Of a DNA stretch of 31,968 bases, positions 5,911 to 29,385 are shown one piece after another (positions within the stretch are counted from its first letter, which is position 1; each line of letters starts with the position of its first letter). Source of the stretch: a virus. The stretch spans positions 32,869-64,836 of the IMG/VR virus record IMGVR_UViG_3300008261_000086; one strand, written 5' to 3'. The notes beneath the pieces were generated by a model, which worked only from the letters and a program-made list of their open reading frames with translations, was not told the DNA's origin and made no database searches. A program made the position numbers and the translations under genes.

Positions 5911-6849
5911 ATGTCTGGAGCGACGACTCAGCAGTGTAAGTCTTGTGGCGAGAAAAAGCCGGCAAACTACATTCACTTTCGCAGTAACGCTAACTCTCCC
6001 AGTGGGCTACGCGCCGACTGTAGGCCCTGTGAACTTCGCAAGCAGGCTGCACGGCGAGAGGAACAGAAAAAGCATCGGCACAACCGGACGCTGTTTGTCA
6101 TCTCCGACATCCACTTCCCGGAGCATGATCGTGCTGTGTGGGTCACCATTCTGGAACTGCTCAAGGACGTGAGGCCCTCGGAGATCGTGCTGTTGGGTGA
6201 CTTCCTTGAGATGTCCTCAGTGAGCCAGCACGGTGGGGCGGAACTAGAGAAACTGACGGAGGATTTTGAGGCAGGCAAGAGCGCCTTGAGGCAGCTACGC
6301 GAGGTGGTGGGCGAGGGCTGTCGCATGACCTACCTAGAGGGCAACCATGAGAGCCGGTTGACTCGGTTCCTCATGTCCAAGGCCCCCTCCCTGCGCGATA
6401 GCTTGTCGTTCCAGGTGGGGCTGGAGTTGGACAAGTTGGGCGTTGAGTGGGTGCCTGAGTACAAGCAGCCTGTCGTGCGTGGCGACCTCGACCTAACACA
6501 TGGGCACCAAGACCTGCGGGAGCGCCCCAGCAAGTTCCATTCGGGCAAGATGGCAGAGGTCTACGGCAGGCCGGAGCGCACGGTCCTGTACGGCCACACC
6601 CACAAGCCACAGGTCTTTACGCGCCCCACGGTGGGGGGGCACGCCACCGCTATCGGTCTGGGCTGTGCTCGCACGCTCACCCCTGGCTGGCTGCATGGAG
6701 CGCAGGCAGGATGGGTGCATCAGGTGGCGGTGGTGTACTTGAGCGATGCGGGGAGGAGCTATGTCTACCCCATCACCCTGCGCCATGGCCAGACGGTGTG
6801 GAACGGCAAGCTCTATGGAGCACGCGAGCAAAAAGAAACGGCGCCCTGA
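5911..6849 (+). CDS. Metallophosphoesterase with N-terminal zinc ribbon
   Basis: A calcineurin-like phosphoesterase of 312 residues. The two-metal motifs are complete: D66-I-H68, G96-D97, G144-N-H-E147, H197/H199 in THGH and G228-H-T-H231. These enzymes hydrolyse phosphomono- or diester bonds; the substrate here is unknown. Residues 9-40 form a CxxC...CxxC zinc ribbon (C9, C12, C37, C40) of the kind found next to phage endonuclease VII/HNH domains, followed by a basic linker. That fusion suggests a nucleic-acid substrate. I chose the ATG at 5911 because GGAG sits 6 bases upstream; a GTG at 5899 lacks a good site. It lies between two terminators, so it may be transcribed separately. A sequence-based family assignment beyond the superfamily is not possible. 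Confidence 0.85.
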   Translation: MSGATTQQCKSCGEKKPANYIHFRSNANSPSGLRADCRPCELRKQAARREEQKKHRHNRTLFVISDIHFPEHDRAVWVTILELLKDVRPSEIVLLGDFLEMSSVSQHGGAELEKLTEDFEAGKSALRQLREVVGEGCRMTYLEGNHESRLTRFLMSKAPSLRDSLSFQVGLELDKLGVEWVPEYKQPVVRGDLDLTHGHQDLRERPSKFHSGKMAEVYGRPERTVLYGHTHKPQVFTRPTVGGHATAIGLGCARTLTPGWLHGAQAGWVHQVAVVYLSDAGRSYVYPITLRHGQTVWNGKLYGAREQKETAP

Positions 6850-6863
6850 CACGACATCAGGGC
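6828..6863 (-). terminator. Terminator of the - strand operon
   Basis: Read on the - strand: stem GCCCTGA (6857-6863) and TCAGGGC (6843-6849) with a 7-base loop, followed by GCCGTTTCTTTTTGC. The T-tract lies in the coding end of the + strand phosphoesterase, and the stem includes that gene's stop codon. Confidence 0.75.
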
Positions 6864-6879
6864 ACCGTCAACAAGTGCT

Positions 6880-6915
6880 GCCACATGGATGGGACGTGGC
6901 TACTTTTTCTTCTTC
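6880..6915 (+). terminator. Terminator of the + strand phosphoesterase gene
   Basis: Stem GCCAC (6880-6884) with GTGGC (6896-6900), followed by TACTTTTTCTTCTTCT. The stem is short. The T-rich tract is the antisense of the lysine-rich C-terminus of the - strand gene beginning at 7208. Confidence 0.6.
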
Positions 6916-7208
6916 TCGCGCTCTAGCTTGTTGACTTGGGCGTTGGCCCACTTCTGGCCTGCGGTTCCACCCCAGAGGCCCCACGCAATAGAGGCAGCGG
7001 AGGTCTTGTCGCTCTTGGGATCGACGCTGTGGCGGGCGAAGAACGACTTCATCCTCTTGAGGGTTTCGGGGGAGATGCCCTTGCCGGCAGCAAGGTCACG
7101 GGCGCGGGCAACCCCAACCTCAGTGCCTCCACGGCCATGCTCTCGGCGGCGCTCAAGGGCGTTCTTGGCAATCTGACGAACGGTAGCGGGGGGTTTGGGA
7201 TTAGGCAT
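6900..7208 (-). CDS. Small basic phage protein with WGLWGGxAGxxWA motif
   Basis: A 102-residue basic protein. The stretch KRMKSFFARH...D...SIAWGLWGGTAGQKWA matches a module I know from many phage proteins (R-M-x-x-F/Y-F-x-R-H ... WxxWGGxAGxxWA), whose biochemical role is not established. The protein ends in EREKKKK. It overlaps the cytosine methyltransferase by 8 bases and is the last gene of the long - strand operon. It may be DNA-binding because of its charge; that is inference. Confidence 0.7.
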   Translation of the reverse strand: MPNPKPPATVRQIAKNALERRREHGRGGTEVGVARARDLAAGKGISPETLKRMKSFFARHSVDPKSDKTSAASIAWGLWGGTAGQKWANAQVNKLEREKKKK

Positions 7209-8130
7209 CGGTGGTCTCCTTTGGCGCTAAGGTAGCAGCAACTCGGCGGGCAAGCCACTCGGCTACGTTGACCGTCACCGCGTTGCCCAACTGCTTGTAG
7301 CGGTGCCGGTTTGCCTGTTGATCTGTCCAGCCACGGGGAAACCCCTGTAGTGCCTCAAATTCTTCTGGCAACAACCTGCGAATGCCGTTGTCGAGAACAG
7401 GCACAAACCAAGGGCAACCGTTGTTGACGTGCTGGTCCTCCAGCCCATGCTTGAGGCCAAACTGCGTGTCCAGCGTAGCCACTACGTCTGCTGGCCAGCG
7501 ACCTTTCGTAGCATGCGCTCCAACTCTGGAATGAGCCGTGCTCCCCGCTTTTCGGCCCTTCTCAGGATTCCTTGGCAGGCTTTCGGGCTCAAAGAGTACT
7601 GACTCGGCGCGTTCGCCTCTAAAATCTGCTGCAAGGAACACACGTTTGCGGCGTTGGGCGACATTGAAGAACTGCGAGTCCAGAACACGCCAGCAGATGT
7701 CCACCGCCCCGATGTCTGCCAGCGAGTGCAGGACGGCTTCAAAGTCACGCCCTCCGTTGCTGGTGAAGACTCCAGTGACGTTTTCCCAAATGGCAAAGTC
7801 AGGTTTTCCATAGGCTTCCCTGAGTTCCTTGATGATGCGTACAGCCTCAAAGAACAAGCCACTACGCGCACCAGCAAGGCCCGCTCGCTTACCCGAAAGG
7901 CTCATGTCCTGGCACGGGGAGCCGTAAACCACCACGTCTACTGGCTTTAGGTTGTGTGCTCCAACAGCACAAACATCCCCATGCAGTTGTGCATGGGGAA
8001 ACCAGCGCCGCAGGACGGCTTGGGCGTGTGGATCAATTTCGCACTGCCAGACCGTTTGGAAGCCCGCTCGCTCAAACCCAAGGTCGACCCCGCCGATGCC
8101 GGCGAACAGGCTACCCAAGGTCATGCTCAC
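7201..8130 (-). CDS. DNA (cytosine-5) methyltransferase
   Basis: A 309-residue C5-cytosine methyltransferase with all key motifs in order: I (FAGIGG, residues 9-14), IV with the catalytic cysteine (GSPCQ, C73), VI (ENV, 116-118), VIII (QRRKRVF, 159-165), IX and X (QLGNAV). It transfers a methyl group from S-adenosylmethionine to C5 of cytosine in a specific DNA site, which the short recognition region does not reveal. No restriction enzyme gene is nearby, so it is likely an orphan protecting phage DNA from host restriction. It starts at GTG with GGGAG 8 bases upstream; the GTGA overlap with the resolvase stop supports this. A later ATG at 8124 is possible. Confidence 0.95.
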   Translation of the reverse strand: MSMTLGSLFAGIGGVDLGFERAGFQTVWQCEIDPHAQAVLRRWFPHAQLHGDVCAVGAHNLKPVDVVVYGSPCQDMSLSGKRAGLAGARSGLFFEAVRIIKELREAYGKPDFAIWENVTGVFTSNGGRDFEAVLHSLADIGAVDICWRVLDSQFFNVAQRRKRVFLAADFRGERAESVLFEPESLPRNPEKGRKAGSTAHSRVGAHATKGRWPADVVATLDTQFGLKHGLEDQHVNNGCPWFVPVLDNGIRRLLPEEFEALQGFPRGWTDQQANRHRYKQLGNAVTVNVAEWLARRVAATLAPKETTDA

Positions 8131-10304: not shown

Positions 10305-10504
10305 CGGCTCTTTCTGTCTCTGTTTGCGTAGAACTCGCGACTGATTCGCTTGACCATGGCCATGTCGTCAATAAGCAGCCGTTGGGGCTGGCTCTTCTCT
10401 CTAGCAACCGCAGTTCGACACCTGGCGCAGAGTGCGCGCTTTTCGACCTTGGTGCGTGACACACGCAGCAGCGTTAACGGGCACAGGCACTTCTCGCAGT
10501 TCAT
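10301..10504 (-). CDS. Small zinc-ribbon protein
   Basis: A 67-residue basic protein with C3-x2-C6 and a second C-x2-C pair (CARC) 20 residues later, a four-cysteine zinc ribbon, followed by a basic helix. The ATGA overlaps join it to ThyX upstream and the Ead-like gene downstream. Likely nucleic-acid or protein binding; function unknown. Confidence 0.7.
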   Translation of the reverse strand: MNCEKCLCPLTLLRVSRTKVEKRALCARCRTAVAREKSQPQRLLIDDMAMVKRISREFYANRDRKSR

Positions 10505-12306
10505 GTGCCTTCCCGTTGGTAGATCGCCTCGTTGGGGACCAGCTTTCGCAACTGCACCCAGCCACGGAAGTTCCCGCTGGGCACATCAGCGGCACTGGCC
10601 ATAGCCACATGCTCAAACGGGCTCATGTGGCCAGAGGCCCGCAGGCGCTCGCACAATTCAATGTCTGCCCAGGGGTTACGCTCTCCGTCATGGGTGAGAT
10701 ACGACACCCGCGCACAGCGCCCCACAGACACCTGCCGCACCTGCTCCTCGGAGTAGCCACCTGCGCGCAACTCGTCTGCGTCATCCATGAGCGGCATATG
10801 CCAAAACCCCGCCTCCACGAACTTGGGGCGATTGGCGCGGTAAACCGCCTCCATCCGTGAGGCGATTTCCTTGATCTCCGGCTGGGCGTCCTTGTGGTTC
10901 CGCAGGGCAAAGAAGTTTTCCCACTCGGTTGCGGTGCAGATGACCGTTTGCCACATGAACGGCTCCAAGAGCCGATTCACCAGTTGCTTGTGGACGCCCA
11001 GCGACTTGAGGTGCTTGGCACGGTTCATGGCGTCAAGGCGGGCTGCGTGCCATTGGTACCTGGCAGCATCCTGCACCTCCAGCGGCAACGCCGCTTCTGC
11101 CTGCATACCCTTCTGGTTGGCTCCCCAGTAGGTTGGCACGAATGGGTCCAACTCCACTCGGGACATCATCTTCTCAATAGGGATGGCACGGGAGGATGCG
11201 GAGTTACGGGAGTTATGAACGACGACGCCATTCGCCAAAAAGTTTGGATAATCTCCGGCAATCTCAAGGTCGTATGTTTTTTCAACTCCGCGAAACACTA
11301 CTTCATCAACAGTCACAGCTGCGCCATACAAATAAGTATCTCCCTGCCATCCTTGTTTTCGATGCATGTCGTCATGGCACTTATCACAAACCAATGTGAT
11401 ATTACTCTCGTCAAGCGCACGAGACACATCTTGATATACTGGAACCAAATGATGAATGTCTGTACCGTTTGTCACGCGACAAATACGGCACAAAGGATCC
11501 ACTTCTTGCATTTTTTTGCGTTGTTTTCGTTGCCACATTGAGCGCCATACGCCATTGATCTTTGTAAGGCTTAATGGATCTTTTTTATCGGAATCGCGTT
11601 TGCCAAATTTGCGAACCAATATCTGGCTACCTGGCCGCAACTCTCCAATAGGCTTCCAGCCATCCGTAGTTAGGACTCGATGATCCTTACTGCCAGCCAC
11701 ACGAAATTCGCTAGCACGGACCTCGTAGACCTCTTTTTCGCCAGACTCATAAACAGCTTTGACATGAGATGTCTGAATGTCTCCTGTATCTTCATTGAGT
11801 TGGCGTATGTGCATTTCCGCAAGCTTGTTTTTCATATCAAACCGCGTGTGCTCCGGAATGTGGTTCCGCCACGCAATCAAGTCTTTTCCTAGAATGTGCC
11901 ATACCCTCCCACGCTTTTGTGCCGGTAAAGCACCAGATCGGCATAGCAAATTGATATTGAACTGATTCGCCATCCCCATCATCGTGGCCGCTTGCTTTGG
12001 CGTGTAAATTTGATCCGGTACAAAATCAGCGGGGTAGTTCTTCTTTGGATTAGCTTTTGTACGCCTTGCGCCATTAAGCCATTTGTCTACAAACTCATCC
12101 AAGCGCATACAGTACACACGCTTGTGTTGCCCTTTGGAAGTTCCAGCTGGCAAATCAAACTCCAGCATGGCATCTCCAGCCAAACACAACTGCCTGTGCG
12201 TGTTGAACTCACTCAGCACAATGCGCGGAAACGTGACCTCAAAAGTGGTCAGGCGATAGCCACTGGGAGCCAGGTGGTCAGCCAGAATGCGAGCGGAATA
12301 GCCCAT
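10501..12306 (-). CDS. thyX: Flavin-dependent thymidylate synthase ThyX interrupted by an intein
   Basis: ThyX makes dTMP from dUMP with methylenetetrahydrofolate, FAD and NADPH, supplying thymidylate for phage DNA. The 601-residue precursor has a 40-residue N-extein ending EFNTHRQL, a 325-residue intein, and a 236-residue C-extein beginning SRNSASSRAIP. Joined, the exteins restore the ThyX signature THRxx-SRNSASSRAxP, giving a normal 276-residue enzyme. The intein thus sits exactly in the substrate-binding motif, so the enzyme should be inactive until splicing. The start is ATG 12306 with AGAGGA upstream and TGATG overlap with the previous gene. The extein is GC-rich, the intein is not. No ThyA is seen. 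Confidence 0.95.
   Translation of the reverse strand: MGYSARILADHLAPSGYRLTTFEVTFPRIVLSEFNTHRQLCLAGDAMLEFDLPAGTSKGQHKRVYCMRLDEFVDKWLNGARRTKANPKKNYPADFVPDQIYTPKQAATMMGMANQFNINLLCRSGALPAQKRGRVWHILGKDLIAWRNHIPEHTRFDMKNKLAEMHIRQLNEDTGDIQTSHVKAVYESGEKEVYEVRASEFRVAGSKDHRVLTTDGWKPIGELRPGSQILVRKFGKRDSDKKDPLSLTKINGVWRSMWQRKQRKKMQEVDPLCRICRVTNGTDIHHLVPVYQDVSRALDESNITLVCDKCHDDMHRKQGWQGDTYLYGAAVTVDEVVFRGVEKTYDLEIAGDYPNFLANGVVVHNSRNSASSRAIPIEKMMSRVELDPFVPTYWGANQKGMQAEAALPLEVQDAARYQWHAARLDAMNRAKHLKSLGVHKQLVNRLLEPFMWQTVICTATEWENFFALRNHKDAQPEIKEIASRMEAVYRANRPKFVEAGFWHMPLMDDADELRAGGYSEEQVRQVSVGRCARVSYLTHDGERNPWADIELCERLRASGHMSPFEHVAMASAADVPSGNFRGWVQLRKLVPNEAIYQREGT
11212..12186 (-). mobile_element. Intein with HTH and HNH homing endonuclease domains in ThyX
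   Basis: The element encodes 325 residues from C1 (CLAGDAMLEF, splicing block A) to the terminal H-N (block G, NGVVVHN), with Ser as the +1 residue. Block B is near residues 163-173 (GSKDHRVLT) and block F near 300-315. Residues about 50-110 contain a segment like excisionase-type HTH domains (YTPKQAATMMG...GRVWHILGKDLIAW). Residues 233-275 form an HNH nuclease (C233-x2-C236, H245-H246, C267-x2-C270-H271, H275). The DNA is visibly AT-richer than the exteins, as expected for a horizontally mobile element. All residues needed for splicing are present. The cut site would be the intein-free thyX allele. Confidence 0.92.
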
Positions 12307-13718: not shown

Positions 13719-14840
13719 CTAAGCCCTCACCGGCATGAGTACATAGACATGCGACTCGTCACCAACAGGCCGCATCCGCACGGGGTCCGTGTCGCCCGTA
13801 ATGCTCAGGACCATCTTCGTCCCCGCTGCCGTCATCAGCATGTCCTGCACATAGCGCCCGTTTAGGTTGATCTTAGTGGCCTGGCCTGCGAACTCCACCG
13901 GCAGGCTGTCCACTGCCTCACCCACCTCGACGTGACGGGACGACAACTGCATACGACCATCTTCCAGAGCTAGCGTGACCGCAGCCGAATGATCCTGCGC
14001 CATCAGCAGCACTCGCCGCAGCACCTCCAGCATGGCTCCACGATCCGCAAAGACCGGCTTGGCCGACTCCTTGGGCATCACCTGTTGATACGCAGGAAAG
14101 GCACCATCGATCAGGCGTGCCGTATAGGTCAGCCCCTGCCGCCGGTAGGTGAGGGTGTTTTCGTTGAACGCCAACTCGGCAGGTGCCGCAGTCTCCTCAC
14201 CCAGCAGCTTGCGAAGTTCGCCAACCGCCTTGCGGGAGATAATGACCCCTGCATCCTTGAGGCCATAGCGGCGGTCGTCCTTGAGGGCGTACATTGACAG
14301 ACGGTGCCCATCGGTGGCCACCAAGTTGACGCCATCAGGAGTCGGGTCCACATAGACACCGTTGAGGTTATAGCGAGTCTCGTCGGAGGACATAGCAAAG
14401 GCCACAGCCTCCAGAGCATCCTTGAACGCCTCGCGCTCCACCGTTTGGTACGCCTGCGCCTCTGGCGTGGGCATGGCAGGGAAGTCCTCTGCCGCCTGAC
14501 CAGCCAGCTTGAACGAGGCTGCGCCGCTGGTGACCTCCAGCCGGTTATTGGCTGCGCTCTTGAGGCGCACCGTCATGTCCGGCAGCACCTTGGCGATGTC
14601 GAACAGCAACTTGGCAGGAACCGCCACAGTGCCTGGCTTTTTGATCTCGCATGGGTGCTGTGAGCACAGGCCCAACTTCAGGTCGTAAGCACGCACCGTC
14701 AACCGGCCACCCTCTGGAGTCTCGTTGGCCTCCAGCAGCACCGTCGAGAGGATGGGCAAAGAACCTTTCTTATCAGCGGTAATGCCCTGCGCTCGCGCCA
14801 GGGCGGCCTTGAGTTCGTGCGTTGCAATCGTGATGTCCAT
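13719..14840 (-). CDS. dnaN: DNA polymerase III beta subunit (sliding clamp)
   Basis: A 373-residue bacterial-type beta clamp, the usual family length. Visible marks are the three-domain spread of the family, DETRYNLNGVY, ATDGHRLS in the second domain, GAFPAYQQVMP in the third, and the C-terminus YVLMPVRA, matching the MPxR ending of host clamps. The ring encircles DNA and tethers polymerases and other enzymes carrying the QLxLF-type motif. It should form a dimer in the cytoplasm. AGAGGA precedes the ATG. No clamp-loader gene is in the window, so the host loader may be used. A partner candidate is the methyltransferase at 29408, whose C-terminus is QLRLF. Confidence 0.97.
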   Translation of the reverse strand: MDITIATHELKAALARAQGITADKKGSLPILSTVLLEANETPEGGRLTVRAYDLKLGLCSQHPCEIKKPGTVAVPAKLLFDIAKVLPDMTVRLKSAANNRLEVTSGAASFKLAGQAAEDFPAMPTPEAQAYQTVEREAFKDALEAVAFAMSSDETRYNLNGVYVDPTPDGVNLVATDGHRLSMYALKDDRRYGLKDAGVIISRKAVGELRKLLGEETAAPAELAFNENTLTYRRQGLTYTARLIDGAFPAYQQVMPKESAKPVFADRGAMLEVLRRVLLMAQDHSAAVTLALEDGRMQLSSRHVEVGEAVDSLPVEFAGQATKINLNGRYVQDMLMTAAGTKMVLSITGDTDPVRMRPVGDESHVYVLMPVRA

Positions 14841-14850
14841 GTGCAGTCCT

Positions 14851-15063
14851 CTAGTGGTTACCGGGAAAGGTGTCGTCCCATGGCAATGGGGAATTGGGGG
14901 TCCGCAGGATAGAGAACTCCTGCGGACCCTGTTGCGAGACTTGCTGTCGGAGTCGTTGTATTTCTTCGATCAGGTCAAGGATGTCGTCACGGGTCGCCAG
15001 CAGTCCTTCCATCGCTGCCGCCCACAACATTGCCAAGCGTGCGTCCGTTACTGGTTGCCTCAT
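14851..15063 (-). CDS. Small helical protein, unknown function
   Basis: A 70-residue product if the ATG at 15063 is used (AAAGG upstream). It overlaps the four-HTH gene by 77 bases, an unusually long overlap here; a later ATG at 15012 would reduce it but has no good site. It contains a helix EGLLATRDDILDLIEEIQRLRQQ similar to the helical part of Ead-like proteins. It ends 10 bases before the clamp start. Confidence 0.55.
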   Translation of the reverse strand: MRQPVTDARLAMLWAAAMEGLLATRDDILDLIEEIQRLRQQVSQQGPQEFSILRTPNSPLPWDDTFPGNH

Positions 15064-15784
15064 CGGGGCCTTTCTGCGCCAACTTACGCATCCAGTAGCG
15101 GATGACCATCTGCTCCACACCAAGTTGCAGGGAGATGGCGTAGGCGCTTAGGCCCTTATTGGCCAGCTTGGCCAACTTCTTAGGGTCCACCTTGCCGTGC
15201 GATTCCCGTCCACTGGGCCGGTTCTTTCGCACTGCCGCAATACGCGCAGACAGTTCGGGCCTGGCGTAGACATAGGACCGCAGGGAGGACAAACGCAGCC
15301 CAGCAGCCGCAGCCAGTTCCGGCCAGGTGCGCCCTTCTGCCAGCCGCACCAACTCGTCATCGGAGGGGCGCTTGTGGTTGGTGTTCAACTTGACGCGCAA
15401 AGCCTTGGCCATCTCGCGCACACGACTTGCAGTTGTGTTGGCAAGACGGGCAATTTCAGTGGCAGAGCGCCGACGCTTGCGGTCCTGTAGCAGTTCACGA
15501 ATGCGCTCTTCGCGCTCCTGCTCCAGCCGCTCTCGTCGTCGTGGCAGGTTGCCGCCAGCCTTGCGGAACCAGTAGTCCACCGTTTGGCGGCGCACTCCTA
15601 ACCGCTCGTAGACCTCGGCAGAACTCAAGCGGTCGAACTTGCCCAACTCCCAAACCACCCGAATATCATCAGGGTCTGGGGCGCGAAACCCGGTACCTAG
15701 CGCCAGTTGGGCTTCCTCTGCATTCGCAGCAGTGCAAAACACCAAGTCCTTGCCGCTACCTGCCACATACAGCCGTCGAGCCAT
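14987..15784 (-). CDS. DNA-binding protein with four helix-turn-helix segments
   Basis: A 265-residue basic protein. Four helix-turn-helix-like segments are visible at residues about 54-76 (SSAEVYERLGVRRQTVDYWF), 107-130 (SATEIARLANTTASRV), 152-176 (TWPELAAAAGLRLSSLRSYV) and 210-234 (LSAYAISLQLGVEQMVIRYW). The first is followed by an arginine-rich linker. Such tandem HTH arrays suggest binding to an extended DNA site or bridging of sites. It starts 2 bases after the stop of the alpha-CTD-like gene, so both are made from one message. A transcription regulator or nucleoid-like role is likely by inference; no catalytic motif is seen. Confidence 0.75.
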   Translation of the reverse strand: MARRLYVAGSGKDLVFCTAANAEEAQLALGTGFRAPDPDDIRVVWELGKFDRLSSAEVYERLGVRRQTVDYWFRKAGGNLPRRRERLEQEREERIRELLQDRKRRRSATEIARLANTTASRVREMAKALRVKLNTNHKRPSDDELVRLAEGRTWPELAAAAGLRLSSLRSYVYARPELSARIAAVRKNRPSGRESHGKVDPKKLAKLANKGLSAYAISLQLGVEQMVIRYWMRKLAQKGPDEATSNGRTLGNVVGGSDGRTAGDP

Positions 15785-15786
15785 GG

Positions 15787-16218
15787 CTATCCCTCCTGCG
15801 GAAGTTCCATGCGTCCAATAGCCTGCACAACCTCAAACGGTGCGTTCAGTGCTGCCAACTGAGCCAGCACGGCCAGTTGCATGGCCTTGGCTCCACGGCG
15901 ATAGGCTGGCGGCAATGCAGCAGGCACCTCGGCGGCAATACGCCCATCCAGCCCAAGGCCAATGTATTGGAGGTACGCCTCAATGTGCAGCACGGTTTTA
16001 CGGCCCATGTTGCGGGCCTTGAGCAAAGCCTTGCGCTCCAGCTTGGACAACTGCCCAATGGTCTGGATGTTGTGCTTCTGGCAGTAGCTCATAGCCCGCA
16101 CAGCTAACGGCAGTTCCGTGACCGGCTGCTTGAGGAGGTCAGTCATGGGCAGTGCCCGCAACTTCTCAAAGCGCGGGCGGTCCTTTTCATAGACAATGGT
16201 CGGTGCCTGCTCACTCAT
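15787..16218 (-). CDS. Free-standing RNA polymerase alpha C-terminal domain-like protein
   Basis: A 143-residue protein from ATG 16218 (GGAG 7 bases upstream, ATGA overlap). Residues about 28-90 align with the alpha-subunit C-terminal domain: L-x(2)-P-V-x-E-L-x-L-x-V-R41, I-Q-T-I-G-x-L, L-L-K, and N70-M-G72-R-K74-T, then I-G-L-G-L. Against E. coli alpha, R265, G296 and K298 (DNA contacts with UP elements) are kept; N268 is Ser, C269 is Tyr and S299 is Thr. In bacteria this domain binds promoter DNA and activators but is tethered to the alpha N-terminal domain; here the tether and that domain are missing. The C-terminal 50 residues are unrelated helices. It is likely a transcription modulator. 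A helix-hairpin-helix DNA-binding protein is the alternative. Confidence 0.8.
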   Translation of the reverse strand: MSEQAPTIVYEKDRPRFEKLRALPMTDLLKQPVTELPLAVRAMSYCQKHNIQTIGQLSKLERKALLKARNMGRKTVLHIEAYLQYIGLGLDGRIAAEVPAALPPAYRRGAKAMQLAVLAQLAALNAPFEVVQAIGRMELPQEG

Positions 16219-16742
16219 GGAGCATCTCCGTTGTACGCATGAGGCCAGCACTTCATCACAAACACCTCTAATGCTGAACGCTTCCACTTGGGGGTACGAA
16301 GAATCCAAGCCGAAATAGGGGCCAAACAGGACCAGCAACTCCACGCATAGTTTTTTTCAAGCAAGTTTTTGCACTCATCTTGTGCCTGCTTGAGCTCCGC
16401 TATGCGTCCGGTCAGGATATCTGCTGCTTCCGCGCACTCTTGTGGATTGGCAGCACACTGCTTTAACAACTTGGCAACACCAGGTCCGCGAGGCCAAGAT
16501 ATGGGCGTTATCGAATACGATCCGATATGATGGTTTTCGGCGCCCATCAACTCAAGCAAGCGCGAACTTACATACTGCGCGATGTTGGCCTCATCTCGCC
16601 AATCGGCCATAACCTTTGCAATCTCGGCACCCTTTCCGCGCTCAATCGCATCCCATGCAGCACGCCGCACCGCTTCCAACTTGGCGTTCTCGTCGCGGAA
16701 CTTTTTTGCCAGAGCCTTCACGTCCTTGATGTCTACGCTCAC
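16215..16742 (-). CDS. Hypothetical helical protein
   Basis: A 175-residue protein starting at GTG 16742, with AAGGAG 7 bases upstream and a GTGA overlap with the preceding stop. It is mainly helical and charged, with a tryptophan- and cysteine-rich C-terminal segment (YAWSCWSCLAPISAWIL) that could be membrane-associated. Bases about 16300-16530 look AT-richer than neighbours. It lies directly before the alpha-CTD-like gene. No family is recognised. Confidence 0.65.
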   Translation of the reverse strand: MSVDIKDVKALAKKFRDENAKLEAVRRAAWDAIERGKGAEIAKVMADWRDEANIAQYVSSRLLELMGAENHHIGSYSITPISWPRGPGVAKLLKQCAANPQECAEAADILTGRIAELKQAQDECKNLLEKNYAWSCWSCLAPISAWILRTPKWKRSALEVFVMKCWPHAYNGDAP

Positions 16743-16957
16743 GGCGCATCTCCTTGCACAGCCCTCCACAACTGCTCTCGGAGGCGCAGGTTCTCAGCGG
16801 ACAGGTACTGGGCGAGGTCAAGTGCCTCCTCCAGTGCCATCTGCTGCCAATCGCGATCTTCGTGATGGTCGAGGCCCTTCCCGTAGGTATTGCGGCCCAC
16901 TCGGCGGCGCTCCTCCAGCAAACGGTCAAAGTGCTGCTCTGCCAATGTCTTCGTCAT
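16739..16957 (-). CDS. Small helical protein, weak MazG-like pattern
   Basis: A 72-residue protein. The segment YGKGLDHHEDRDWQQMALEEALDLAQYL recalls all-alpha NTP pyrophosphohydrolase (MazG-like) helices with the E-E-x(2)-D pattern and is common in small phage proteins. It is too short for a full enzyme, so function is open. ATGA and GTGA overlaps join both neighbours. Confidence 0.65.
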   Translation of the reverse strand: MTKTLAEQHFDRLLEERRRVGRNTYGKGLDHHEDRDWQQMALEEALDLAQYLSAENLRLREQLWRAVQGDAP

Positions 16958-17181
16958 GGAACCACCTGCTGGTATTGGTACTGCATGGTCACTCGGCGGT
17001 CATCGGCCTTGAGCGTGTCGATCTCGTCAAGTGCCTTTTCCAACCGACACACAGTGCATGGGCTGTCTTGCGGGCAAGAGGGAATGGCGCCGTCACCTGG
17101 CGTGCAATCGTGCTCGCGCAGGCGCTCCCGCAGGTACTGAATCCGCTCCTGCAACTCCTTGATGAGCAAGTCCGCGCTCAT
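16954..17181 (-). CDS. Small coiled-coil protein with cysteine cluster
   Basis: A 75-residue protein with two helical segments around C26, C36, C42 and C45 (CTVC), which could hold a zinc. The ATGA overlap joins both neighbours. Function unknown. Confidence 0.65.
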   Translation of the reverse strand: MSADLLIKELQERIQYLRERLREHDCTPGDGAIPSCPQDSPCTVCRLEKALDEIDTLKADDRRVTMQYQYQQVVP

Positions 17182-17438
17182 GGGCGATCCACCCGCCGCA
17201 GGACGATCATCAACTCGGCCCAGGTGTGCCGATCACCCTGCGGGTCGGAGAGGGCGTGGTCCACGTCCAGCATAAGTTGCCGGATGTCGGTCTCCGACAA
17301 CAGTGGCGTGATGTGGGCAATGGCCCCCGCAATCGTCACTGCCTGCTGGCCGGTGTCCTTACCAATTGCATGGCGCAGTGCGGCCCGTGCCAAAATGCCT
17401 AAATCGTCTTGCTGCTCCACCGTCACTTTTGAACCCAC
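17178..17438 (-). CDS. Hypothetical protein
   Basis: An 86-residue protein starting at GTG 17438, 6 bases after a strong GAGGAG. It overlaps the upstream gene by 16 bases and the downstream start by 4. Helical; no motif is recognised. Confidence 0.65.
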   Translation of the reverse strand: MGSKVTVEQQDDLGILARAALRHAIGKDTGQQAVTIAGAIAHITPLLSETDIRQLMLDVDHALSDPQGDRHTWAELMIVLRRVDRP

Positions 17439-18030: not shown

Positions 18031-18065
18031 AAAGCAAAGGGGCCAGTGCAACTGCACCAGCCCCT
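18031..18065 (-). terminator. Terminator after the Rad50-like gene
   Basis: On the - strand AGGGGC (18060-18065) pairs with GCCCCT (18038-18043), with an inner GTGC/GCAC stem, followed by TTGCTTTTTGG. It lies 22 bases after the stop of the ATPase gene. Confidence 0.8.
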
Positions 18066-18086
18066 CGCGCTTGAGTGCTTGTGTTG

Positions 18087-19727
18087 CTAACCGGACAGAA
18101 CAGCCTTGCCGTCACTGAGCGAAACCCGAATGTGCCGGTCTGGGCGCAGTGCCTTGACCAAGTCGGGGCTATGGGTCACCACCACGACCACACGGTCCTG
18201 CGCCATCTCTGCCAGCACTGCGGCAACATCCGACTGCCCCTGCACGTCGAGGGCGTCAAAGACCTCATCGCAGAGCAGGGAGCCGTCGCGGCCATGTGCA
18301 GCCACCGCCAGTTCGCGCAGGGCCAGCAGGAGGGCCACATCGACTCGGCGCCGCTCGCCACCAGAGCAGGAGGCATAGGGACGCCCATGCACTCGCAGGG
18401 AGATGGCGTCCACCGTGCTGCCGCTCTTTTGGGTGGTGGTGCCTGTCAGGCTAATAGCCAGCGCCCCCTGCTCCGTAGGCATACGGTCCAGCCAGGCGTT
18501 AGCCTGACCTTCAAGTGCTGTCAGGCTGTGGTCAAGCACCTGAGCCCGCACACCTCGCAGCCCAAGCACCTGCTCCGTGGCCTCAAGGTGCGCCAAGTGC
18601 AGTTGCGCTTCCGCTGCTGCCTGCTTGGACACCTCCACCTTGCCTGCCCACTCAGCCACCGCATTCTGGGCGTCCAGCACCTTTTGCGCCAGGCCTGCGC
18701 GCTGCTTGGCTGCTTGCTCGGCTAGACGGAACTCCGTGCGTGCTGTGTTCAGCTTGTTCTGTAGCTCTTGCAGTTCGTACTTGAGGTCAGCCTCCATAGC
18801 GCGGGCAGCGACCATGTCCACTTCGACGGCAGCTAGCGCACGAACGGACTCCTGCCGCAGTCGCTCCACCTCGCGCTCTAGGTGGCTCTTCATGTCCACG
18901 ACATTCTGTCCGCAGGTGACGCAGGTGTCCTTGGAGAGTCGGGCAAGGCGGGCCTGCTCTGCACGCAAGTCTGCTATGCACTCTGCCTGCTTCTTCAGCA
19001 GGTCCACCACGACATCGGTTGCCTTGCTGGCGTCGGACTCTGCCGCCTTGACCAAGTCCACCAACCGCTGGCCCTCGGCCTTCATGGCCTTGAGGTCTTT
19101 AGCCTCTGTTGTCAGGTCGGCCAGTTCTTTCTTGGCTGTGTCTAGCTGAGACTGCGCGAAACCCAACTGTAGGTTTACTTTCTCGCAATCGGAGGTGGCC
19201 TGCTGCGCCTTGGCCGATGCCTCCCGCTTGTCCTTACGGCAGGCGTCCAGAGCCACGTCGAAGGCAGACAGCCCAAGGAACTCCTCCAGCAGGCGCTTTC
19301 GGTCAGCGTCCCGTGCCAGAGAGAATGCGGCGCTATCGGCACTTGAAAGGACGCAGGTCCGTCGCCACACGTCATAGGAGCCCACGACATGCTCTAGCGC
19401 AGCCTGTGCCTTGCTGGTGGTTTCGTACTCGGTGGCTGATGTGTTGAGGTACTGCCACTCCAACTTGGAGGCGCCTGCCTTAGACCTCTTGCGGGTCAGG
19501 CGCAGTTGGTCAGTTTCCAGAGTGACTGCCCCCGGCTGGCCAGAGCGCCAGCCCAACTCCCCGCGCAGGCTCTCGCCCCAGCCAGCGGTGGCCACGGCTT
19601 CTAGCAGGCTGCTCTTGCCCGACCCGTTGCCGCCCGTAACCGCCACAAGGCCACGGGAGGGCAGGGCGACCTCGGACTGCTCATGGGTCGCAAAGTTAGC
19701 CAGGGTCAGTTTCCGTAGGTGCAGCAT
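18087..19727 (-). CDS. Rad50/SbcC-like recombination ATPase
   Basis: A 546-residue SMC-type ATPase, about the size of T4 gp46. Walker A is GGNGSGKSS (residues 32-40), a zinc hook C269-V-T-C272 lies in the middle of the coiled coil, the ABC signature is S455-GGERRR, Walker B is LLCDEVFDALD (484-494) and the H-loop is H519. With the Mre11-like nuclease at 20880 it should process DNA ends for recombination-dependent replication and repair, tethering DNA ends by zinc-linked hooks. The start overlaps the previous gene by 32 bases with GGGGAG upstream. Five small genes separate it from the nuclease partner, although both sit in one transcript ending in a terminator. Confidence 0.94.
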   Translation of the reverse strand: MLHLRKLTLANFATHEQSEVALPSRGLVAVTGGNGSGKSSLLEAVATAGWGESLRGELGWRSGQPGAVTLETDQLRLTRKRSKAGASKLEWQYLNTSATEYETTSKAQAALEHVVGSYDVWRRTCVLSSADSAAFSLARDADRKRLLEEFLGLSAFDVALDACRKDKREASAKAQQATSDCEKVNLQLGFAQSQLDTAKKELADLTTEAKDLKAMKAEGQRLVDLVKAAESDASKATDVVVDLLKKQAECIADLRAEQARLARLSKDTCVTCGQNVVDMKSHLEREVERLRQESVRALAAVEVDMVAARAMEADLKYELQELQNKLNTARTEFRLAEQAAKQRAGLAQKVLDAQNAVAEWAGKVEVSKQAAAEAQLHLAHLEATEQVLGLRGVRAQVLDHSLTALEGQANAWLDRMPTEQGALAISLTGTTTQKSGSTVDAISLRVHGRPYASCSGGERRRVDVALLLALRELAVAAHGRDGSLLCDEVFDALDVQGQSDVAAVLAEMAQDRVVVVVTHSPDLVKALRPDRHIRVSLSDGKAVLSG

Positions 19728-26739: not shown

Positions 26740-29385
26740 TTATGTGCAGCCCTCAAGCGGGCAGGGTTGACCCTTTTTCCACTTCTGCATGCTGGCCCAG
26801 TTACGCCCCACCTTGGCATCAGCAGCCAACGGCACCCCGTTCTTCGTCCGGTGGCTGCACATGATTTCCAAGACCTTAGCATGCACCTCGGACACGCAGT
26901 CGTCCCGCACTTCTAGGAGCATGGAGTCATGGATAGTGACTAGCACCTTCGCCGGCACGCCCTCACTCACGATCCAGTCCACCACCTTGCAGGCAGAGGC
27001 CACCAAGTATTCGTTTCCGGTGCCTTGAATCGGCGTGTTCCAACTGGAGCGGCGCTGAGTCTTGCCGGTTGGCGTGTCGAGGTTGATAGCCTCGACCAGC
27101 GGCCTCCGTCGAGCAGGTAGTCCATCCCACCAGGTCCATGCCGCTCCGGTCTTGGCAGTCTCCTTGACCCGCTCGGCAATCCACTTGCCCAGCATCGGAT
27201 AGCAGCCAAAGACTGCCTCCTTGATCTGCTCTGCCTTTTCCTTGGCGCAGCCCACCCGCATGGCCAGCCCATACGGGTCGTCATCGTACAAAAGTCCGAA
27301 AACGAACGGTTTAGCTTCTCGTCGGTGGGTGTCGGTGACTTGGTCCGGCTCAATGTCCCACAGCGCACGGGAGAGCAACCGCGCCGTCTGCATGTGGAAG
27401 TCTTTGTCTTGAATGAAGATGTCGAGCATGGCCGGATCGCCTGACAGGTCAGCAGCCACACGCAACTCTAGCTGGGAGTAGTCCACCTCCATCAGGCAGT
27501 ATCCCGGCTCCGCTTGAAAGCAAGCACGAAACATGCGCGCCAACTCGGCCTGCATCGGGTCGGTGGACTCTACTGAAGGCATGACCTGGAGGTTGGGCGC
27601 TGAACTGCTCGTCCTTCCAGTGCGGGCGCCGTCCGGGTGAATCGTAGGATGGACGCGCCCATCGTCGCGGATGTAGCCCAGAATGTTGTCCACATAGGAC
27701 GAGCGCATCTTCGTCAGGCCACGCCACTTGAGGATGTCGGCCACAACCGGATGTTGGTCAACCAGCGCCTCCAGTGCCACCGCATCGGTGGAGGCTGCGC
27801 CCTTGTCAGTCAGTTTGGCGCTCTTGAGTTTCAACTGAGCGAACAGCAGCTTGCCGATCTTCGACGGACTGCCGGGGCTAAACTCGCAGTCAGGGTTCGC
27901 TGGGTCATAGCCATAGGGCCGCAGGCGCTCCACGATACAATCTGTCTGCATATCTAAATAAGTGCCGACGTTTTGTAGTGCATCGCGGTCCACGCAAATG
28001 CCCCACGACTCAATGCGGGCATAGGTGTCACTGGCAGGAAGCGCCACCTTGCGGGCCACCTCTTGCATTCCCTCGGGCTCCTGTGCCAGCCACTCCTCAA
28101 GCAGCGCCCCTACCTGTGCCGTAATAACCGTGTCGGAGGCGTTGTAGCGGTACAGCAACTCCGGCTCCACGAAGGCAAAGCCGTACTGGCCGGTTTCGGC
28201 ACCTGCTGCCAACTTGTCGCCATGGGAGGGCAGTGCCAGCGATGGGAGCGGCACCTTGAACAGGCCCCCATTCCCCTTGGCGCGTGCTCGTCGGTAGGCG
28301 GCAACTGCCTTGCTCATCGCCTCTTGCAGTTCGTCTTTGTGGCCACCACGCCCAACGAGGTGCGCCATGTCGGCCAACTTGCCGCTAGCCTCGGCGTCCA
28401 TGAGGCGGCGGGCAAGTCGGGTGTCAAAGGTGACACCACGGGTCCACACGCCAAAGAACGCATGGAAGGCGACGATGTCAGCCTTGAAGTAGGAGCCTAC
28501 CTTTTTGTAGGTCGGGTCACGCAGCCAGCCAGCTAGCAGCGCCCGGCACGTCGGGTCTGCCAGCGCCTCTGCCGTAAAGACCCAGGCGTCTTCTTGCCCC
28601 TTGGGAGTCAGAGCCACGGACAACAACTTGAAGTCTTTATCGTAGGGGCGCCCTGCCCACTCAGCGTCCACGGCAGTCCATGCCGCAGTCTTGGTTTGCT
28701 CAAGGCACCGTCGAGCGGTCTCTTCTGCAAACACCAACTTCGCCCAGGTCTCTCCCGGCTCAGGTGGCGCAGTGCGAGGCTCGCAGGTCAGGGCACGTTG
28801 AAAGTCTTCCTCAAGCCATGCGGCGAGAAAGCGGTTCTTTGCGGCCTGCACAGGAGACACAAGGTAAAAGACCGGCACCCAGCCCCATGCGAACTTCACC
28901 CACGCAAAGCCCTGCCGCATGACGCTGGGGGCAATGAGTGAGCCGGTGATGGCGTAGATGGCGCCAGAGCCAAGGGCAAGGATGCGCTTGGGCTTCAAGG
29001 CTTCCAGCGTGTGCTGGAGATAGGGACGGCACTCGGACAGGCCTGGCACCAACGCAGTGGCAAGCTCCCCTTGTCCCTGTCCCTTGGGAGGGCAGCGCAA
29101 GGCCGAAGCGTAAGCGACCGGCATCGCTGCCGCCTCGGCCATGCGCCGCAACTTCAACCCTAGCGGACCTTGGAGCGGCTTCTTAAACCGCGCCTCGGCT
29201 AGGCTAGGGTAGCTGTCCAGCACCAGCAGCCCACCGGCTTCACCCTCATGCGGCAGGCAGGTTCCCGTGCGCCCAGCGGAATGGGCACAGCGGGTGCAAG
29301 ACGCATCAGGCGCAAGCCCCTCAACGCCATCCAGCGGAGAGGAGGGCGTCGAGTTGTAGATGGGCAACTGGTGCAGGACAGACAT
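26740..29385 (-). CDS. polA: Family A DNA polymerase with N-terminal UDG-like domain
   Basis: An 881-residue replicative polymerase. Residues about 28-200 resemble family 4 uracil-DNA glycosylases, with C30-x2-C33 and C98/C119 able to hold a 4Fe-4S cluster, but GEAPG is DSYPS and the late HP motif is SP, so glycosylase activity is doubtful. Residues about 235-425 are a 3'-5' exonuclease (D240-A-E242, D303, Y414-x3-D418). Polymerase motifs: A D635-YSQLE640, B R689-x2-K692-x3-F696-x3-Y700, C H819-D820-S821 where Glu is usual. It copies phage DNA with proofreading. The partner clamp is at 13719. AAAGG precedes the ATG. Confidence 0.95.
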   Translation of the reverse strand: MSVLHQLPIYNSTPSSPLDGVEGLAPDASCTRCAHSAGRTGTCLPHEGEAGGLLVLDSYPSLAEARFKKPLQGPLGLKLRRMAEAAAMPVAYASALRCPPKGQGQGELATALVPGLSECRPYLQHTLEALKPKRILALGSGAIYAITGSLIAPSVMRQGFAWVKFAWGWVPVFYLVSPVQAAKNRFLAAWLEEDFQRALTCEPRTAPPEPGETWAKLVFAEETARRCLEQTKTAAWTAVDAEWAGRPYDKDFKLLSVALTPKGQEDAWVFTAEALADPTCRALLAGWLRDPTYKKVGSYFKADIVAFHAFFGVWTRGVTFDTRLARRLMDAEASGKLADMAHLVGRGGHKDELQEAMSKAVAAYRRARAKGNGGLFKVPLPSLALPSHGDKLAAGAETGQYGFAFVEPELLYRYNASDTVITAQVGALLEEWLAQEPEGMQEVARKVALPASDTYARIESWGICVDRDALQNVGTYLDMQTDCIVERLRPYGYDPANPDCEFSPGSPSKIGKLLFAQLKLKSAKLTDKGAASTDAVALEALVDQHPVVADILKWRGLTKMRSSYVDNILGYIRDDGRVHPTIHPDGARTGRTSSSAPNLQVMPSVESTDPMQAELARMFRACFQAEPGYCLMEVDYSQLELRVAADLSGDPAMLDIFIQDKDFHMQTARLLSRALWDIEPDQVTDTHRREAKPFVFGLLYDDDPYGLAMRVGCAKEKAEQIKEAVFGCYPMLGKWIAERVKETAKTGAAWTWWDGLPARRRPLVEAINLDTPTGKTQRRSSWNTPIQGTGNEYLVASACKVVDWIVSEGVPAKVLVTIHDSMLLEVRDDCVSEVHAKVLEIMCSHRTKNGVPLAADAKVGRNWASMQKWKKGQPCPLEGCT

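Follow-up and report, generated by a model that had tools for sequence, protein, structure and literature searches.

The stretch of DNA analysed here (the window, 31,968 nucleotides) makes up the latter half of a virus record of 64,836 bases. Structural-type genes occupy the plus strand in the first 32.9 kb of the record and at the start of the window. A block on the minus strand encodes a DNA methyltransferase, a RuvC-like resolvase, ThyX with an intein, DnaN, an HTH protein, an RNA polymerase alpha C-terminal domain (alphaCTD) protein and several small ORFs, and continues with SbcC, SbcD, RecA/UvsX, a gp32-like SSB, UDG-PolA, a methyltransferase and a primase. The alphaCTD gene lies within this compact replication and recombination block, directly before a multi-HTH gene, which is followed by dnaN (Table 1).

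Table 1. Features around the alphaCTD gene (window coordinates)
Feature	Position	Strand	Evidence
DnaN-type sliding clamp, same operon direction	13719..14840	minus	PF00712/02767/02768, E about 1e-21 to 1e-26; phrog_947, 2.2e-79
P0005, downstream neighbour, 265 aa, several HTH motifs, candidate partner	14987..15784	minus	MerR_1, 4.1e-5; other HTH families weak
P0001, free-standing alphaCTD-like protein, 143 aa	15787..16218	minus	PF03118, PDB sequence matches, AF2 + Foldseek
P0004, upstream neighbour	16215..16742	minus	Sequence
Shine-Dalgarno-like GGAG, 7 nt 5' of the P0001 ATG	16226..16229	minus	Sequence read directly
Small ORF, 72 aa, in the overlapping gene chain	16739..16957	minus	ORF list; overlaps read from the sequence
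Small ORF, 75 aa, in the overlapping gene chain	16954..17181	minus	ORF list; no NCBIfam match
Small ORF, 86 aa, in the overlapping gene chain	17178..17438	minus	Weak phrog_6703 (unknown function)
Terminator-like hairpin and T-rich tail, directly following SbcC	18037..18066	minus	13-pair stem, 8 GC
SbcC-like ATPase, upstream in the replication/recombination block	18087..19727	minus	phrog_77, 1.3e-54; SMC_N, 1.2e-14

A first-pass annotation, made from the sequence alone, had placed the alphaCTD-like protein at 15787-16218. An intact ORF of 143 aa (named P0001) was indeed found there on the minus strand, with an ATG start (16218-16216) and a TAG stop (15789-15787); the plus-strand reading of the same interval is interrupted by an internal stop. 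The P0001 start overlaps the stop of P0004 by 4 nt (ATGA), and 2 nt separate the P0001 stop from the start of P0005. GC contents at the three codon phases were 0.67/0.40/0.70, a pattern also seen in DnaN, PolA and SbcC of the same contig. The P0004 ORF opens at 16769, and its likely start is the GTG at 16742, which follows AAGGAG. No match to P0004 was obtained in Pfam, PHROG or NCBIfam. P0005 matches phrog_323 (D5-like transcriptional regulator, 1e-8). What the first-pass annotation had called an early operon is, by gene content, part of the replication and recombination block.

Because a terminator-like hairpin lies just after SbcC and small overlapping genes form a chain, the sequence points to a transcription unit of its own for the alphaCTD gene chain, starting near 18.0 kb and running toward the HTH gene and dnaN. 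Three terminator-like hairpins were found in the region against 5.2 expected in shuffled sequences, so the hairpin is suggestive only. A promoter scan of the region gave nothing above chance.

Three other features of the contig were recorded. The ThyX-type thymidylate synthase gene (10501-12306, minus strand) is split by an intein in which HNH and HTH_17 were matched. The family A DNA polymerase (26740-29385, minus strand) has an N-terminal uracil-DNA-glycosylase-like domain (PF03167, E = 1.9e-5). A tRNA-Ala (tgc) gene is present on the same phage contig (L007:3607-3681).

Domain identity and fold of P0001

P0001 was confirmed as a genuine RNA polymerase alphaCTD protein by sequence matches and by its predicted fold. 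Pfam family PF03118 (curated cut-off 23.8 bits) matched residues 26-84 over positions 8-66 of the 67-position profile, with 41 bits and E = 1.6e-10. When PDB sequences were searched with phmmer, the best E-value was 2.1e-7 and all 43 matches listed were RNA polymerase alpha. A model was built with AF2 from an alignment of 76 sequences, including the 75 viral alphaCTDs described below. Its mean pLDDT was 80.5, with most of the core above 90; single-sequence AF2 gave 46.

The model was compared with the PDB using Foldseek. The best 50 matches by E-value were all RNA polymerase alpha or alphaCTD structures, among them CAP-alphaCTD-DNA and sigma4-alphaCTD-DNA complexes. Owing to the small size of the domain, the E-values were modest, none better than 1.5e-3. 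Many isolated alphaCTDs were superposed on the model at 1.0-1.7 A over about 60-66 residues with a probability of 1.00. For structures of alphaCTD with DNA or sigma4 the values were 1.6 A (3n4m), 1.1-1.7 A (1lb2) and 1.2 A (1z3e). The first-pass annotation had proposed such an AlphaFold comparison, and the predicted fold matches the alphaCTD structures. It had also named an unrelated helix-hairpin-helix (HhH) family as the competing identity; no HhH family outscored alphaCTD in the Pfam, PDB sequence or fold searches. No HhH Pfam family was reported for P0001 at E <= 0.01, and in a viral fold search with the model HhH proteins appeared only at ranks 17 and 20.

The alphaCTD core spans residues 26-90 approximately. 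It is accompanied by an extra N-terminal helix (11-21) and a helical C-terminal tail (110-135), the latter modelled with low confidence. The alphaCTD match, originally described as covering the first 90 residues, is therefore real but extends over about residues 26-90 (16-102 at most) and does not begin at residue 1.

PF03118 was the sole Pfam match in the 143 aa of P0001, and no alpha N-terminal domain (alpha-NTD) was present. The NCBIfam rpoA models scored only 24-42 bits, against cut-offs above 227. On the whole 64.8-kb contig a single PF03118 locus and no RNA_pol_L match were found, so the absence of an alpha-NTD, already proposed for the protein, holds for the rest of the contig as well. 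Sigma regions 2 and 4 were not found on the contig. As it contains neither alpha-NTD nor sigma domains, the contig gives no sign of a phage-encoded bacterial-type polymerase. A search of the contig for single-subunit RNA polymerase was empty, which says little since the same family was matched in no control genome.

P0001 has in common with the bacterial alphaCTD (E. coli RpoA 249-329; PDB 1coo, 1lb2, 3n4m and 3n97) its fold, its domain length, R265/G296/K298 and the hydrophobic core, at about 29-37% identity. In contrast to the bacterial subunit, it has no alpha-NTD or linker and so cannot assemble into RNA polymerase, and it adds the N-terminal helix and a 45-aa C-terminal tail.

DNA-contact and sigma-contact residues

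Alignment to E. coli numbering confirmed that R41, G72 and K74 are the equivalents of R265, G296 and K298, as first proposed. T75 occupies the S299 position, a conservative change. Several other contacts are replaced: N268 by S44, C269 by Y45, L270 by C46 and E302 by H78. The DNA-contact set R265/N268/C269/G296/K298/S299/E302 thus reads R, S, Y, G, K, T, H in P0001 and is incomplete, which lowers the case for binding to UP elements in the manner of the host alphaCTD but not that for membership of the domain family. Published work on E. coli describes R265 as critical for DNA binding and reports a complete loss of UP-element activation with N268A and of PBAD activity with N268T (PMC11434276). 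Given these effects of N268 substitutions, P0001 may bind UP elements weakly or in an altered way. In our reading, binding to DNA as such has probably been kept in a modified form.

The surfaces that face other proteins differ as well. The acidic 258-261 determinant, which contacts sigma region 4, is absent, V33, T34, E35 and P37 being found at 257, 258, 259 and 261. Positions 285-288 read E/R/K/A, so that the acidic 286-288 patch is lost or basic. From the sequence, the classical sigma- and CRP-facing surfaces were probably not retained. The net charge of the core is +6, versus -1 for the E. coli and B. subtilis alphaCTDs.

P0001 was then set against 75 other viral alphaCTDs. A core charge above that of P0001 was found in only 3 of them. 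E or D occurs in 69/75 at position 302, a column left unconstrained by the search pattern, and K or R in 48/75 at position 298. Serine (AGY) at 268 was permitted by one of the two patterns, and the alphaCTDs matched by that pattern carry N nonetheless. By its sequence, P0001 is an outlier, an atypical and very basic alphaCTD. The altered DNA-contact and sigma-contact surface is the key detail overlooked in the first-pass annotation.

AlphaCTD proteins of other phages and viruses

No close relatives of P0001 were found in IMG/VR, GTDB genomes or phage records at default thresholds. The phage itself appears from sequence searches to be nearly an orphan. A sole relative of its DnaN was found (25% identity), and searches with its RecA, SbcC and P0005 gave no relatives. 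Its PolA had a single match, 100% identical, on a contig whose 8.4 kb do not extend as far as the alphaCTD gene.

In a relaxed search of phage records, genuine alphaCTD proteins were found in Bacillus phage Goe8, Mycobacterium phage Zenteno07 and the Microbacterium phages Mazun, Morrill, Atraxi and TrippleS. Many further 'alphaCTD' matches in the phage collection were bacterial rpoA contamination and were discarded (also MD-2021a and Salmonella contigs). MT839982 was rejected as a phage alphaCTD, its rpoA being followed by an L17-like gene. Several of the 'phage' records in the series MT837xxx-MT839xxx, OR84xxxx and CAKLQ contain normal bacterial rpoA genes, and host contamination is their apparent origin.

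The proteins of Mazun, Morrill, Zenteno07 and Goe8 are, like P0001, short chains without an alpha-NTD. P0001 has no detectable homology to them outside the core, and their N-terminal extensions differ. N268 is kept in all four aligned proteins, whereas P0001 has S at that position and H at 302. The Goe8 gene (MN043729.1) is located at 1959-2591; PF03118 was matched at 2397-2567 and at 156544-156714, near both ends of the 161.6-kb genome, and the two copies probably belong to a terminal repeat. In SPO1-like phages related to Goe8, the corresponding terminal region holds host-takeover genes. Bacillus phage SBSphiC has a region related to the N-terminal part of the Goe8 protein; the reported match takes in only residues 1-143 and stops short of the alphaCTD.

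Two codon-pattern scans of IMG/VR yielded 114 alphaCTD ORFs in 76 clusters (70% identity), a lower bound as the scan was motif-based and not an unbiased profile search. Hand-made codon patterns were used because the divergent 8-row alignment contained no sufficiently conserved stretch. These patterns preselect R265, N268 (or N/S), R293, N294, G296 and S/T/C299, and the columns concerned were therefore not used as evidence of conservation. PF03118 was matched by 75 of the 76 cluster representatives. No alpha-NTD was detected in any of the 114 ORFs by phmmer (E. coli query, without a positive control; locus ends truncate some of the ORFs), and the 25 Pfam families listed for the 76 clusters include none for the alpha-NTD. 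A virus-encoded alphaCTD without an alpha-NTD was thus found in P0001, which lies in a virus record with adjoining phage replication genes, and likewise in the 76 clusters. Since terminases, portal proteins, NinG, helicases and ssDNA-annealing proteins are encoded next to these alphaCTDs, the contigs that carry them were considered viral.

The same chain contains Sigma70_r4 in 24/76 clusters. Many other clusters match HTH or transcriptional-regulator families in the one chain; the additional matches include HTH_3, HTH_17, HTH_26 and the NrdR zinc ribbon. In fusions such as L030, L021 and L041 the same alphaCTD module, without an alpha-NTD, is joined to its own sigma region 4 or HTH domain, whereas P0001 has only an HTH gene next door. 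Proteins with HTH, sigma region 4 and alphaCTD in one chain and no alpha-NTD are encoded at L030:256-1149 and L021:6342-7295 (both minus strand), among others. Two tandem alphaCTD genes were seen in 2 of the 22 records searched (G017, 6743-7460; G020, 14964-15669), echoing the two alphaCTDs of RNA polymerase. A stretch of the PglW (BREX/Pgl kinase) profile (804-857) is weakly similar to the alphaCTD core of P0001, and L021 also has NF033442 in this PglW-type likeness, hinting at an alphaCTD-like module in the defence protein PglW.

Two candidate features of the class were rejected. Free-standing alphaCTDs do not sit preferentially beside regulators, no excess over control genes being found in 39 other clusters. 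Nor was a tie to the sliding clamp, of the kind known from T4 late transcription, a feature of the class, since DnaN was found in 0/50 other alphaCTD-bearing virus records.

Phage alphaCTD proteins have already been annotated in one phage paper (PMC9127768), besides databases. No functional study of phage free-standing alphaCTDs was found in the literature searched. P0001 is an atypical member of this already annotated class. A stand-alone alphaCTD had been called unexpected in a phage. That holds only in part, since annotations of the class exist: free-standing alphaCTDs have been annotated in several phages, and viral contigs carry them widely. In our view the broader class, with its sigma4-alphaCTD fusions, is a more interesting lead than P0001 itself.

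Possible roles of an untethered alphaCTD

The reading we favour, with a confidence a little short of even, is that P0001, as an untethered alphaCTD, influences in trans how the host RNA polymerase transcribes. Without an alpha-NTD, it would be a small DNA-binding domain unable to assemble into the polymerase. Binding either to activator-DNA complexes or in the minor groove of upstream promoter DNA, it could compete with or substitute for the host alphaCTDs there. The result would be less UP-element- or activator-dependent host transcription, the marking of phage promoters, or both, and the multi-HTH P0005 might act together with it. The domain match, the predicted fold, the retention of R41, G72, K74 and T75, the basic core and the lack of alpha-NTD and sigma domains on the contig support such a role. 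It is also favoured because the context of the class is transcriptional (Sigma70_r4 and HTH or regulator fusions), and the end-located Goe8 genes were counted on the same side. Against it stand the replacement of N268, C269 and E302 (the last so rarely lost in other viral alphaCTDs), the position of the gene among replication genes (SbcC, DnaN) and not beside a late-gene operon, and the absence of a regulator excess beside other free-standing alphaCTDs.

The first-pass annotation had suggested that the protein competes at promoters, bridges activators or redirects the host polymerase. The fold and three contacts on which this idea was based are kept, but other DNA contacts and the acidic sigma/CRP determinants are altered; neither action like that of the host alphaCTD at UP elements nor bridging of activators to sigma can therefore be assumed. 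With the 258-261 and 286-288 acidic patches lost, a DNA-binding competitor or an adaptor is likelier than a faithful sigma/CRP-contacting copy.

In the adaptor case, which we regard as unlikely, P0005 would provide the sequence specificity and P0001 an alphaCTD-like surface, and the pair would recruit or position host RNA polymerase at phage promoters, a positive regulation. At the same low probability, the two genes would correspond, in split form, to the HTH-alphaCTD and HTH-sigma4-alphaCTD proteins that other viral contigs encode as one chain. The existence of such fused chains and the start of P0005 2 nt past the P0001 stop are in keeping with this. So is phrog_323, matched by P0005 and by 2 of the 76 viral alphaCTD proteins, a weak sequence link for a pair fused elsewhere and split here. 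However, none of the viral alphaCTD proteins retrieved has extra domains homologous in sequence to P0005, free-standing alphaCTDs show no regulator excess, and the acidic sigma-contact determinant is lost.

Somewhat less probable still is a role outside transcription, in which an HhH-like DNA-binding protein of the phage replication and recombination machinery was repurposed from an alphaCTD and the fold kept for non-specific DNA binding. The neighbours (SbcC, DnaN, the RecA-like protein, the gp32-like SSB and PolA), the high positive charge and the erosion of alphaCTD-specific residues (N268, E302, 258-261, 286-288) would fit. Yet R265, the most specific mark of minor-groove binding by alphaCTDs, is kept with G296 and K298, P0001 is matched by no HhH family in Pfam, transcription domains are fused to, or annotated in, many relatives, and the clamp is missing from all 50 other alphaCTD-bearing virus records. 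A non-functional relic or stray host rpoA fragment, from phage pick-up or assembly, is highly improbable: several otherwise conserved residues have diverged, but the ORF is intact, with a Shine-Dalgarno sequence, start/stop overlaps and native codon-phase GC, the best identities to bacterial RpoA reach only about 31-37%, PF03118 occurs once with no alpha-NTD on the contig, and the core and predicted fold are retained.

Host RNA polymerase alpha is a known target of phages. T4 Alt and ModA ADP-ribosylate R265 of the host alphaCTD. The Rac protein of phiKMV-like phages also acts on host RNA polymerase alpha (PMC7552054). The trans-acting role favoured here for P0001 involves the same target, but Alt, ModA and Rac modify or cleave the host subunit, whereas P0001 would be an alphaCTD mimic or paralogue and not an enzyme.

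A wider proposal, which we hold as doubtful, is that phages of many lineages use the untethered alphaCTD as an interchangeable part for transcription control (alone, in tandem, or fused to sigma region 4 and/or HTH), such that one protein could read the UP element and the -35 without the body of a polymerase subunit. P0001 would then be a strongly basic member of altered specificity, acting jointly with the neighbouring HTH protein. Interference with host transcription, or its redirection, is the probable use of lone phage alphaCTDs.

In bacterial RNA polymerase, the alphaCTD is the hub through which UP elements and many activators make contact. If it acts in this way, a lone alphaCTD supplied by a phage would rewire host transcription compactly, with the polymerase left unmodified. 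Viral alphaCTD proteins are numerous and diverse and are often fused to sigma region 4, which raises the question of whether a free alphaCTD in trans is an inhibitor or an adaptor. Natural variants with changed DNA-contact residues are ready material for studies of minor-groove recognition.
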